Positions 28,499 to 33,462 of a stretch of 45,852 nucleotides of DNA are shown one piece after another. Source of the DNA: an uncultured Flavobacteriales bacterium. GTDB taxonomy: Bacteria; Bacteroidota; Bacteroidia; Flavobacteriales_G; Salibacteraceae. How positions within the stretch are numbered: the first letter of the stretch is position 1; every line of letters starts with the position of its first letter. Location of the stretch: NCBI GenBank assembly GCA_913062955.1, contig CAJXZP010000024.1:1-45852 (forward strand), read 5' to 3'. The translations under genes were made by a program, and so were the position numbers. The notes under the pieces were generated by a model that had not been told where the DNA came from, searched no databases, and saw only the letters and a list, made by a program, of their open reading frames with translations.

Positions 28499-29743
28499 TT
28501 AGCAAATTACATCAATAACCTTCCCTTTTAATCTTTTCCCTAAGAGAGGTGTGTTTTTTGACTTTGAACGTAATTGAGATGCCGATACTGTCCATTCCAT
28601 TTCCGAATCAAAAATGGTTAAGTTAGCCGCTATTTCGGTATTTATTGCTCGTAGTTCTTGTCCGAAAATAATTCTAGGATGAATAGATACGGCTCGGATC
28701 CAAATATCGATTGGGATAAGGGGTGATAAATAAGTTTGATACAAACTATAGGTAGTTTCAATACTTGATTGTCCAAAACCAGCAATATCAAATTCGCATT
28801 GTTTCTCCTCAATATTTTGCGGATTGTGATTGGATACAATAGCGTCAATGGTTCCTTTAACAACCCCGTTAATTAACGCTTTCCTATCCTTTTCTGTGCG
28901 AAGGGGAGGGGTCACTTTATAATTGGAATCAAAACCTTCAAGGGCCGCCTCATTCCAAATTAAATTGGCGATGGCTACGTCACAAGTAACTTGTATCCCC
29001 CGTTTTTTCGCCCTTTTTATTTGGGATAAAGAATTTGCACTACTGATCGTTCTAAAATGGATAGGAGCGTCACAATATTCTGCAATGGCTAGGTCACGAG
29101 CCACCATAATTTCTTCACTTAAAGAGGGGTCCGATTTTAAACCTAAAAGCGTGCTCGAAACTCCTTCGTGCATGACCCCGTGATGCGATATTCGACTATC
29201 CGATGGATAAATAATCACCTTGCCATTAAATGTTTTGGAGTACAATAAGGCACGTTTCAGTAAATCAGGATTGGATATTGGTAATTGCCCATCCGAAAAA
29301 CCCACTGCACCAGCCAGATGTAAATCATACATTTCGGTGAAATTTTGCCCCTTTAACCCTTCAGATAGGGCTGCTAAAGGCAGTATTTCAATAGGTAAGG
29401 ATAGGTTTCTGCTTTTAATATAGTGGACTTGGGATTTGGTTTCGGTAACTGGATGCGTATTGGCTGATAATATTACGGTGGAATATCCTCCATTTTTTGC
29501 AGCTTCCGAACCAGATTCTAAATCTTCTTTGTGTTCCATACCCGGATCATTAAATTCAGCATGTAAATCTATCCACCCCGGAGAAACATGTAAAGACTTT
29601 CCTTCGATAACTTTTTTGGTTTCTTTGGAAATAGTTTTTTCTATAGAGCTGATTTTTCCTTTCTCTATTAGAATATCCATTTCTAAAGAATGGAAAGTAC
29701 TAGAAGGGTCTATAATTAGTGCCTTTTTAATCAATAAACTCAT
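28499..29743 (-). CDS. Dihydroorotase-like amidohydrolase lacking catalytic residues
   Basis: The 414-residue protein aligns by eye along its whole length with class I dihydroorotase: a composite barrel with SPGWIDLH, a central GVMHEGV, CDVAIANL and a C-terminal amidohydrolase end. Every metal-site motif is altered. DxHxHxREPG is DLHAEFNDPG (second His to Glu63, Arg to Asn65), the first middle His is Tyr179, HxxH is HFRT (Thr232), and TDHAPH is SNHNPQ (Asp to Asn305, last His to Gln309). It is therefore probably not a dihydroorotase and may be a structural or regulatory pseudoenzyme. Its ATG overlaps the stop of the BatA-type gene (ATGA), so the two are co-translated. Confidence 0.85.
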   Translation of the reverse strand: MSLLIKKALIIDPSSTFHSLEMDILIEKGKISSIEKTISKETKKVIEGKSLHVSPGWIDLHAEFNDPGMEHKEDLESGSEAAKNGGYSTVILSANTHPVTETKSQVHYIKSRNLSLPIEILPLAALSEGLKGQNFTEMYDLHLAGAVGFSDGQLPISNPDLLKRALLYSKTFNGKVIIYPSDSRISHHGVMHEGVSSTLLGLKSDPSLSEEIMVARDLAIAEYCDAPIHFRTISSANSLSQIKRAKKRGIQVTCDVAIANLIWNEAALEGFDSNYKVTPPLRTEKDRKALINGVVKGTIDAIVSNHNPQNIEEKQCEFDIAGFGQSSIETTYSLYQTYLSPLIPIDIWIRAVSIHPRIIFGQELRAINTEIAANLTIFDSEMEWTVSASQLRSKSKNTPLLGKRLKGKVIDVIC

Positions 29744-31779
29744 AATACCGAAGGTTTAAAATATCTAATCAATACAATTTCAATAGCCAAAAACAGGAGT
29801 CCAAAAAGGATAAACCATCTCCAAAGTTCAATTCCTTTTTCGTTTTGTTTAAAATCAGTACTAAAGGCGTTAATGTCTGAATTTAACACTTGGAAATTTG
29901 TAAGTCCCAGATCATCAATTTTTTGCTGTAAATCAATTGCCGAATAAGCTTCTAAGGAGGATTCTATTCGATCGTAATTAAGAGCCAAAACTGCGATCAA
30001 TTCGTTGTTTTGAGTGACATTATAATTTCCTGCTTTCTGAATTCCGTTATGTAAGGCTATAGAAATCCCATTAGAAGTAGGGATGACCTCTGGTATAAGG
30101 TCTGTTTTGAATTTGTCATTCTGTACATGAAAAATCAATTCATTGGTGTTTTGAGTATGTAGTAGAGGAATTATCTCGTTTTCTCCAATTTTTAAAGAAG
30201 AATACGTATTTACGCCACTATTAAAGCCCATTTGATAAAAGGTCGGAAGAAATATACTATGAAGACTAAAGTTTGAAAATTCTTCGTTTAACGAAATGCT
30301 AAACAGATAAACGCATCCTTTTAGGTTTTTCCATTCCGATAATATTACCTGATTATTTGCCGTGATTAAATACGGAGTGGAACTGGAATTTATTCGTGAA
30401 TCCCAGTTTTTGTAAACCGTAGGAAGATTAATGTTTTCCATTTTACCCGAAAACACTTTTCTATACAGGAGGGCTCCAAGATTGATTTTCTTAATACGTA
30501 AAGTATCCTCTTGGAGGTTTCCTAATTTTTTTATTTGTAAATTCCCGAGTAAATCATTGAGCGATTTCGGAGGGGTATCACTCGAAGGTATAAGTGTTAA
30601 ATGACCTCCATCATTGACGTATTGCGTTAAAGTGGCTATTAATCCGGTAGAGTAATTGGCTAACTCGTTGACAATAATCAAATCCTGGTTTTTCAGTTGG
30701 TTAAGGTCCAATTGATCGAATCGAGATTTGGAGTATTGAAAATAGGGTTCAAATGAAAAAGCTTTTTCAATTTTTGAGCTTCGTCCATCCGAGTATATTT
30801 CTAATACTTGAATATGCTCCCGAATATGGAAGGTGAAGTAATGCTCATTATCGTATACCACCGGATAATCCGTAATACTTATTTTGCCCGTATGCCATCC
30901 AGTACTTTTAGTATTGAATCGAATTAAAGTATCAAAATCCGATTTGGCAGGTACCGAAATGTTTACAAAAGCCTTTTGTACTCCGTCTAGTTGCAAATTT
31001 ACCTGAACACTTTCTTTATCTTCTGTACCTGTATTTTTTATGCGTAAATGAACTTCTTCTTCTTGATTAATTCTATGTACAGGATTCACAAACCAAACCG
31101 AATCGACCGAAAGGTTTTCGATAGCACCAGGTGAAATGGGAATGAGGGTATAGTTAACTAAAGTGTCATTTTCAATAGCTTCAAAATTGAATTGTGTTTT
31201 TTGAAAATCAGAAATGATATAACTCGAATAGGGCTGGCCTTTAAAAGCGGAAGATTGCCTTTTAATTATATTCGCTAAAGGCTGTGAATTTGCGGATAAC
31301 ATCACTTTCTCTAAGTGTTTGTTTAGTTCAGTTACCGGAAACAAGTGTTGCTGACTACCCTCAAATTTATTAGATAACAATTGGTGATTTACATGTTTGG
31401 GTAATTCATCCAGTAGCTGAAATGCTATTTCACGTTGAATATCGGATAGGGTACCCTCTGAATTTGAATTCTCGGAACTGAAAGAATTATCAATAAATAT
31501 AGAACTGGTTCCGTTTGATTCGTTTTTTGCTTTTTTCCCTACTGGAAAAAAAGGTTGGGCAAAAGCCAATACTAAAGCGGTAATGGCCAGCATTCTACTT
31601 ATTAAGATAAGTAAATGTTTAATGTTGGACTTGGCTTGGGTGGATTGTTTAACCTCTTTTAAAAAGGAGACATTACTGAAATAAACCTTTTTGTGTCTTT
31701 GAAAATTAAATAGATGGATGATTATTGGAATAATCAACGTAAACAATGCATAAAGAAACTGCGGATACAGGAATTTCAT
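29740..31779 (-). CDS. BatA-type membrane protein (N-terminal double-transmembrane domain)
   Basis: The 679-residue protein opens with the Bacteroidota double-membrane module: MKFLYPQFLYALFTLIIPI (first segment about 8-24), a basic loop FNFQRHKKVYFSNVSFLKEV, and a second segment about 56-78. A large extracytoplasmic region has VWA-like and beta-sandwich character (SIFIDNSFSS, a DSVWFVNPVHRINQEEEV stretch). A last membrane segment sits near the C-terminus (about 652-673). Bat proteins relate to aerotolerance and envelope assembly in Bacteroides, but this is a distinct long member. A TAAATTTG box ends 7 nt before the ATG. It overlaps the dihydroorotase-like gene by 4 nt. Confidence 0.85.
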   Translation of the reverse strand: MKFLYPQFLYALFTLIIPIIIHLFNFQRHKKVYFSNVSFLKEVKQSTQAKSNIKHLLILISRMLAITALVLAFAQPFFPVGKKAKNESNGTSSIFIDNSFSSENSNSEGTLSDIQREIAFQLLDELPKHVNHQLLSNKFEGSQQHLFPVTELNKHLEKVMLSANSQPLANIIKRQSSAFKGQPYSSYIISDFQKTQFNFEAIENDTLVNYTLIPISPGAIENLSVDSVWFVNPVHRINQEEEVHLRIKNTGTEDKESVQVNLQLDGVQKAFVNISVPAKSDFDTLIRFNTKSTGWHTGKISITDYPVVYDNEHYFTFHIREHIQVLEIYSDGRSSKIEKAFSFEPYFQYSKSRFDQLDLNQLKNQDLIIVNELANYSTGLIATLTQYVNDGGHLTLIPSSDTPPKSLNDLLGNLQIKKLGNLQEDTLRIKKINLGALLYRKVFSGKMENINLPTVYKNWDSRINSSSTPYLITANNQVILSEWKNLKGCVYLFSISLNEEFSNFSLHSIFLPTFYQMGFNSGVNTYSSLKIGENEIIPLLHTQNTNELIFHVQNDKFKTDLIPEVIPTSNGISIALHNGIQKAGNYNVTQNNELIAVLALNYDRIESSLEAYSAIDLQQKIDDLGLTNFQVLNSDINAFSTDFKQNEKGIELWRWFILFGLLFLAIEIVLIRYFKPSVL

Positions 31780-32037: not shown

Positions 32038-33462
32038 ATGTACGTAGAACAGTTATATACCGGTTGTATTGCCGTAGGAACTTATTATATTGAATCGAAC
32101 GGGGTAGCAGCCATCATTGATCCATTAAGAGATCCAGAACCTTATATGGTGATGGCAGCTGAACGTGGTGCACAGATTAAATATGTTTTTATTACGCATT
32201 TTCATGCTGATTTTGTTTCTGGTCATGTGGATTTGGCAAAGAAAACTGGAGCAACTATTGTTTTTGGTCCTACGGCTAAACCCAATTATGATATTCATAT
32301 GGGGGAAGATGGAGAGATTTTTAATATTGGTGAAGTAACCCTTGAGTTGTTACATACTCCTGGGCATACTTTAGAGTCTTCTTCGTTTTTATTAAGAGAT
32401 GAAAACAAACTAGAACATTGTGTTTTTACAGGAGATGCTTTATTCTTAGGGGATGTTGGCCGTCCAGATTTGGCGATAAAATCGGATTTAACGCAAAATG
32501 ATTTGGCAGAAATGTTATTTGATTCTTTACGAAATAAATTAATGCCTTTGCCCGACCGAATTCTTGTATATCCAAACCATGGTGCAGGTTCGTCTTGTGG
32601 AAAAAGCATGAGTACAGATACGGTAGATACCCTAGGGAATCAGAAGTTAACGAACTATGCCTTACGAGCGGATATGACCAAAGAAGAGTTTGTTAAGGAG
32701 ATTCTTCACGGTTTAACACCACCCCCACAATATTTTCCAAAAAATGCCAAGATGAATCGTTTTGGAACAGAATCTAATTTTGACCAGGTATTAGCCAAAG
32801 GAATGACGGGCGTTGCTTGTGGTGAAATAAAGGAATGGATGAATAAAGGATATTTAATTCTAGATACTCGTGAACAAACTGAATTTCAACAAGGGTACAT
32901 TCCCGGGTCCATGTATATTGGATTGGATGGGAACTTTGCCATGTGGGTAGGGGCACTAATTGAAGATATCAATCAACCTATTATTTTAATTGCGGAAAAA
33001 GGGAGAGAACGCGAAGCCGTGACTCGTTTGTCAAGAGTAGGTTATGATAATTGCCAAGGCCATTTATTGGGCGGGTTTGAATCATGGAAAGCTGCTGGAC
33101 TTACGGTAGATACTATTCAGGTAGTTCAACCCAAGGAGATTTCCGGAATCATTGAAAAAGAAGGGGAAATTAATGTAGTAGATGTACGTGCACCAGGGGA
33201 ATGGGATGCCCAACATGTAGTTGGAGCGACACATTTTCCATTAGCGTTGATTCATTCAAACTTGAAGCAATTGGATAAAAATAAAAAAATGTACTTCCAT
33301 TGTGCAGCAGGGTACCGTTCTATGATGGCCGTAACTATCTTAAAAAACTATGGATATTCAAACGATAATTTAGTCAGTATTGATGGTGGGTTTAATGAAA
33401 TATTAAAATCCGATATGAAAGTTACGGATTACGTTTGTGCCTCAAGTACAACAGCTACTTAA
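32038..33462 (+). CDS. Persulfide dioxygenase/rhodanese fusion, CstB-like
   Basis: The 474-residue protein joins an N-terminal metallo-beta-lactamase-fold domain to two rhodanese domains. The first has THFHADFVSGH (His54, His56, Asp58, His63), HTPGHT and FTGDALFLGDVGRPDL, the ETHE1/persulfide dioxygenase pattern with a mononuclear iron site. The middle rhodanese (about 265-355) has EKGRERE where the Cys loop should be, so it is inactive. The last (about 368-465) has FHCAAGYRS with Cys422. This order (dioxygenase, pseudo-rhodanese, active rhodanese) matches Staphylococcus CstB, which turns persulfides into thiosulfate to detoxify sulfide. A sulfide regulator is not adjacent. Confidence 0.9.
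   Translation: MYVEQLYTGCIAVGTYYIESNGVAAIIDPLRDPEPYMVMAAERGAQIKYVFITHFHADFVSGHVDLAKKTGATIVFGPTAKPNYDIHMGEDGEIFNIGEVTLELLHTPGHTLESSSFLLRDENKLEHCVFTGDALFLGDVGRPDLAIKSDLTQNDLAEMLFDSLRNKLMPLPDRILVYPNHGAGSSCGKSMSTDTVDTLGNQKLTNYALRADMTKEEFVKEILHGLTPPPQYFPKNAKMNRFGTESNFDQVLAKGMTGVACGEIKEWMNKGYLILDTREQTEFQQGYIPGSMYIGLDGNFAMWVGALIEDINQPIILIAEKGREREAVTRLSRVGYDNCQGHLLGGFESWKAAGLTVDTIQVVQPKEISGIIEKEGEINVVDVRAPGEWDAQHVVGATHFPLALIHSNLKQLDKNKKMYFHCAAGYRSMMAVTILKNYGYSNDNLVSIDGGFNEILKSDMKVTDYVCASSTTAT

Follow-up and report, generated by a model that had tools for sequence, protein, structure and literature searches.

A degenerate type I dihydroorotase coupled to a BatA-like gene as a probable non-catalytic partner of aspartate carbamoyltransferase

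The window (the whole stretch of 45,852 nucleotides that was analysed) encodes P0001, a homologue of type I dihydroorotase here termed a pseudo-dihydroorotase (pDHO). With a probability of roughly two in three, P0001 is a catalytically dead dihydroorotase that acts as a non-catalytic partner and would scaffold PyrB, the aspartate carbamoyltransferase (ATCase). Ligand residues have been lost from the protein, the source genome (G000) holds a separate dihydroorotase-type gene and is without PyrI, and pDHO is co-inherited with one type of PyrB. We infer a physical complex of pDHO and PyrB that would be needed for assembly or activity of the ATCase. In such a complex pDHO would bridge PyrB trimers in the way that dihydroorotase (DHO) dimers join them in the Aquifex DHO–ATC dodecamer and pDHO joins them in the Pseudomonas class A2 ATCase. 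The features of the gene pair are as follows; those within the pDHO gene were placed by alignment with 3d6n and by the residue tally.

28499–29743, minus strand: pseudo-dihydroorotase (pDHO, P0001), type I dihydroorotase fold, 414 residues (open reading frame, profile, alignment and model)
29740–31779, minus strand: BatA-like membrane protein, 679 residues (open reading frame and profile matches)
29740–29743, minus strand: ATGA overlap of 4 nt between the stop of the BatA-like gene and the start of pDHO
29555–29563, minus strand: H61-A-E63 replacing HxH (α-metal ligands), with H61 kept and H63 replaced by E63
29291–29293, minus strand: D151, corresponding to the Aquifex ligand D153, kept
29207–29209, minus strand: Y179 replacing H180
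29048–29059, minus strand: H229-F-R-T232 replacing HxxH, with H232 lost
28817–28834, minus strand: S304-N-H-N-P-Q309 replacing TDHAPH, with D305 replaced by N305 and H306 and P308 kept

Both open reading frames are present on the minus strand, and the first-pass annotation was right that the pDHO frame is intact and that its ATG overlaps the BatA stop. P0001 scored 322.5 bits against TIGR00857 (cut-off 279) in a profile search, and no Pfam family was matched in the Pfam profile search. Profile, sequence and predicted fold all identify it as a type I dihydroorotase homologue of full length. The best sequence match was the Aquifex dihydroorotase (3d6n; E 8e-78), and the same structure (3d6n_A) was the best fold match of the AlphaFold2 model (TM 0.88; mean pLDDT 80, pTM 0.85). 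The low-confidence segments of the model (residues 66–71, 189–202 and 309–325) each follow a former ligand motif. In the BatA-like protein the N-terminal domain was matched by PF07584 at 74.3 bits (cut-off 25.9) and by TIGR02226 at 61.6 bits (cut-off 23.05). Its layout consists of an N-terminal double-transmembrane domain, the segment D97-N-S-F-S (DxSxS pattern), which we take to be MIDAS-like, and a C-terminal transmembrane helix. The model of this protein (pLDDT 69, pTM 0.49) is of low confidence and therefore too weak for interpretation; its single-domain fold matches were CARDB and ThuA-like.

Six metal or catalytic residues were scored by the Aquifex reference (H61, H63, D153, H180, H232 and D305), with ligand identities taken from PMC3880350. 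P0001 keeps two of the six (H61 and D151) and thus lacks the residue set of a catalytic type I dihydroorotase; the substrate arginine R65 is also replaced, by N65. The degenerate motifs had been read correctly in the first-pass annotation, with the nuance that the change does not reach every single ligand, as H61 and D151 survive. Judged from its residues, P0001 is probably a pseudoenzyme with no working dihydroorotase activity.

Homologues were sought in a class panel of 119 genomes, 101 of which carry a strong P0001 homologue, intact in one of them (G072). Weak matches in G163, G172 and G240 lie behind BatA and are degenerate. The panel therefore comprises 103 genomes with pDHO (100 strong and these three diverged; motifs were read in a subset of loci), one with an intact copy and 15 with neither. 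All 68 tallied class homologues keep between zero and four of the six residues (none in three, one in eight, two in 32, three in 19 and four in six); this tally leaves out L045 (intact), L106 and L119 (mis-called, truncated starts), and L046 and L047, intact by eye, also stand outside it. The 25 intact homologues, 21 of them drawn from the phylum's other classes and four from Chloroflexi, all keep the full set of six residues; this contrast is descriptive and no independent test, because visual inspection of the motifs had been the basis for choosing them. Among 25 homologues from outside the class, 23 look intact by motif, and pyrB lies in the short upstream flank of eight; one of these eight (L233) is degenerate. 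In G072 the gene keeps all six residues and stands directly behind pyrB, and no IIb dihydroorotase was found over the cut-off.

Of the 68 class members tallied, all retain H306, 67 P308 and 47 D305. This retention would suit a protein that is still an enzyme, be it a dihydroorotase with little or no metal or a related hydrolase acting on a different substrate, and a Pseudomonas PyrC paralogue free of zinc ligands is reported as active (PMC2770081). The ligand positions vary freely among members, however, unlike those of a re-tooled site, and P0001 has lost four of the six residues, D305 included, together with the substrate arginine. Moreover, 97 of the 103 pDHO genomes have a IIb dihydroorotase scoring above the cut-off; the six without one (G163, G167, G168, G223, G226 and G227) would be consistent with residual activity. 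On balance we regard a surviving enzyme as very unlikely. A functionless gene in decay would explain the missing active-site residues, and the summed branch lengths are greater for pDHO (31.0) than for PyrB (21.1) and IIb (18.3), although some wrong-strand rows would inflate the latter two values. Full-length frames nevertheless persist in most of 100 class genomes from many families, and non-catalytic positions are conserved (P279 in 68, R282 in 64 and E70 in 66 of 68 members), which makes decay hardly credible.

The check for another dihydroorotase gene that had been proposed earlier gave a positive result. G000 holds a IIb-like gene at C52:16101-17336 (NF006688, 699 bits, cut-off 535), in which TDHAPH is kept and QxH stands instead of HxH. 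The earlier suggestion of a use other than dihydroorotase catalysis is supported. As an observation on the IIb-type proteins, the presumed catalytic dihydroorotase of G000 (L002:1453-2787) has Q for the first H of HxH (IDDQVHFREPG), and L149, L151 and L152 show the same change.

PyrB of G000 is encoded on contig C2 and pDHO on C24, so that the two genes are not adjacent. The best solved relative of this PyrB is the ATC of the Aquifex DHO–ATC complex, with the trimeric ATCases of the Bacillus subtilis type close behind; residues 11–300 of its 311 align to the 291-residue Aquifex chain, and short extra ends are present. A PyrB match was found in 102 of the 103 pDHO genomes, the exception being G163; among the 100 strong pDHO genomes PyrB is over the cut-off in 98 and fragmented in two. 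This figure says little by itself because 115 of the 119 class genomes have a PyrB match.

The type of PyrB is more informative than its presence. PyrBs were sampled from G000 and from 40 pDHO genomes for which pDHO and BatA had already been retrieved, and all 41 have median identities of 63–82% to one another. The six PyrBs taken from class members that lack pDHO (G012, G185, G202, G232, G234 and G249; groups f4, f71, f78 and f47, four independent lineages) all show median identities of 35–50%, in a sample that leaves out G219 (genus of G185), G241 and three PyrI genomes. Seven PyrBs from elsewhere in the phylum, at 59–62%, lie above those of class genomes without pDHO. In a tree of PyrB the branches leading to the foreign types are very long, and the pDHO-type PyrBs do not form one clade (three changes by program count); because of these branches the identities carry the argument instead of the tree.

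Two cases stand out. In G232 BatA is kept with an unrelated gene behind it, pDHO is absent elsewhere and PyrB is foreign (38% at best), and G161 and G200 of the same genus carry pDHO; since the G232 MAG consists of 410 contigs, mis-binning is possible. The three genomes of family f68 have no PyrB, no IIb over the cut-off and no detectable pDHO, and BatA is kept; the region downstream of BatA was read in G182 and G247, the G217 contig ending there. PyrB occurs with neither pDHO nor PyrI in eight of 119 genomes (G012, G185, G202, G219, G232, G234, G241 and G249), so PyrB can function without either partner.

PyrI was absent from G000 (no TIGR00240 match). It is found in three of the 119 class genomes, none of which has pDHO. 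In the order of G176, which is probably Bacteroidales, given that a Bacteroides control genome also has PyrI, PyrI is present in 101 of 109 genomes; no P0001 match above 103 bits was obtained in the 109, and the six best matches read all keep TDHAPH. PyrI and pDHO exclude each other, and a single evolutionary event may lie behind the exclusion.

BatA was sought at 70 loci (69 pDHO loci and the intact L045). At 54 of the 69 pDHO loci it precedes pDHO on the same strand, within 150 nt in 51 and with a 4-nt overlap in 17, while the commonest gene downstream of pDHO occurs at only 10 of 68 loci; the linkage is therefore both specific and widespread. The degenerate motifs and the BatA neighbour, which the first-pass annotation had proposed to look for in related genomes, both recur, and the coupling it described in the window is conserved among relatives.

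Such linkage could mean that pDHO partners the BatA-like protein and not PyrB, the two forming one envelope unit in which the dihydroorotase fold would have been taken up as a module for binding. In keeping with this, G163 has a very diverged pDHO overlapping BatA (L117:214-3413) and a IIb-like dihydroorotase, and no PyrB was found in this single MAG of 230 contigs, the sole genome of its family. On the stem of G172 and G240, pDHO and BatA also diverged strongly together (lengths of 2.01 and 1.60; PyrB 0.83, IIb 0.44). Relative to the median inner branch, however, this stem is lengthened about 28-fold in PyrB, compared with 33-fold in pDHO, 25-fold in BatA and 11-fold in IIb, so that PyrB is accelerated too. 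Branch rates of the four proteins were compared across 41 genomes and 79 branches: partial rho values of 0.37 (pDHO–BatA), 0.22 (pDHO–PyrB) and 0.26 (pDHO–IIb), with overlapping intervals, lean slightly to BatA and do not discriminate. BatA is present without pDHO in G182, G217, G247 and G232; conversely, G002, G007, G033 and G194 (72% complete) have pDHO and no BatA match. A shared function with BatA is not the best-supported reading because BatA persists where pDHO has been lost. By the positive-inside rule for membrane topology, the loop between the first two BatA helices is predicted to be cytoplasmic and the large domain outside, which would leave little cytoplasmic surface for pDHO. We consider an exclusive BatA partnership unlikely, and the simplest reading of the coupling is that it links the genes in expression.

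A combination of the two partnerships, in which the BatA-like protein would hold pDHO, and thereby ATCase, at the inner membrane in a three-part assembly marked by the conserved gene overlap, is more doubtful still. If true, it would put the first committed step of pyrimidine synthesis beside envelope-sugar synthesis or the membrane-bound dihydroorotate dehydrogenase.

The origin of pDHO was considered using a homologue tree of 96 rows plus four IIb rows, with SH-aLRT as the only support measure and no bootstrap. In it 65 class pDHOs, the window's included, form one group (SH-aLRT 91). The long-branched L051, L052 and L117 are placed outside that group, possibly as an artefact, and three changes of the pseudo label are needed on the tree. 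In a phylum panel a IIb dihydroorotase is over the cut-off in 36 of 37 class genomes, against two of 111 others; the only class genome without it is G072, whose intact copy adjoins pyrB, and G087, which lies outside the class, carries both IIb and an old copy that is intact. These distributions fit, and do not prove, a takeover of catalysis by IIb followed by loss of catalysis in the older copy. The starting point would have been an active pyrB–pyrC pair, as outside the class; with IIb present in the class, the old copy would have lost catalysis, kept a structural job and been relocated from pyrB to BatA. Two degenerate dihydroorotase homologues from other classes of the phylum, L233 (G001; directly behind pyrB) and L249 (G096), look like separate losses, and they too are on long branches.

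In Pseudomonas the pDHO gene presumably adjoins pyrB, whereas in the window it is coupled to BatA and pyrB lies elsewhere. Adjacency to pyrB is a gene-order trait and no property of the complex. A class A2 ATCase is characterized by a stable dodecamer and by a PyrB that has terminal extensions and is monomeric by itself. P0001 shares with class A2 partners the missing metal ligands, the other dihydroorotase gene in the genome and the absence of PyrI; since pyrB is not adjacent and the complex here is a proposed one, we describe P0001 as functioning in the manner of class A2 partners and stop short of counting it among the proven members. The first-pass annotation had mentioned non-catalytic dihydroorotases that support ATCase and had set against them that pyrB is not adjacent. 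The gene order stands as described, but the comparative data strengthen the precedent, because PyrB resembles the Aquifex ATC, pDHO tracks the type of PyrB and L233 follows pyrB elsewhere.

The Pseudomonas aeruginosa pDHO (PyrC'/PyrX, class A2) is described as a dihydroorotase homologue without zinc ligands that is inactive, yet required for ATCase activity (PMC7053772), with a separate active dihydroorotase in the genome (PMC2770081), as is presumed for the separate gene of G000. The Aquifex aeolicus class A1 complex (3d6n, 4bjh) supplies the closest solved chains for both P0001 and PyrB. According to PMC3880350, its DHO and ATC form a dodecamer and association orders the DHO loops; in contrast to P0001, the Aquifex enzyme is an active DHO with its ligands complete. 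Fungal CAD (URA2; Chaetomium 5NNL) likewise has a dead DHO fold joined to ATCase (PMC7053772, PMC12524618), although there the DHO-like part is a domain of a multifunctional eukaryotic protein. The Pseudomonas PyrC paralogue reported as active, which is Zur-linked, resembles P0001 in lacking zinc ligands and differs in that activity (PMC2770081). In the open-licence papers searched, none was found joining dihydroorotase and BatA, or on a Bacteroidetes pDHO.

Automatic annotation likely names P0001 homologues dihydroorotase in many class genomes because the TIGR00857 cut-off is passed. If P0001 is a scaffold for PyrB, these genomes hold a dead scaffold at this position and another gene carries out the dihydroorotase reaction, and most of the class would use a class A2-like ATCase and one order PyrI. 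With the exclusion of pDHO and PyrI and the swap in G232, the question of why ATCases need non-catalytic partners becomes open to direct test in a relative that can be cultured.

Several smaller observations accompany these results. The pyrB frame of G000 (L058:3497-5000, contig C2) is directly preceded by another gene, which we assume to be PyrR-like. A natural PyrB–DHO fusion, considered for the long frames L046, L047 and L048, was rejected, since by eye the N-terminal extras resemble chance open reading frames of GC-rich DNA. Contig C95 of G163 carries a short near-copy of the pDHO end. L051 and L052 (G172 and G240; one genus, family f58) show extreme divergence of pDHO and BatA, with PyrB also faster; divergence is milder in G209, from that family too. 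At 10 of 68 loci (L079, L106, L110–L112, L118, L119 and L121–L123) the gene behind pDHO, on its strand, is glycosyltransferase-like, and in G072 (L134) a similar gene was seen by eye near BatA, pDHO not being there. In the window itself, positions 32038–33462 (plus strand) encode, by eye, an N-terminal metallo-β-lactamase-like part followed by rhodanese-like repeats.
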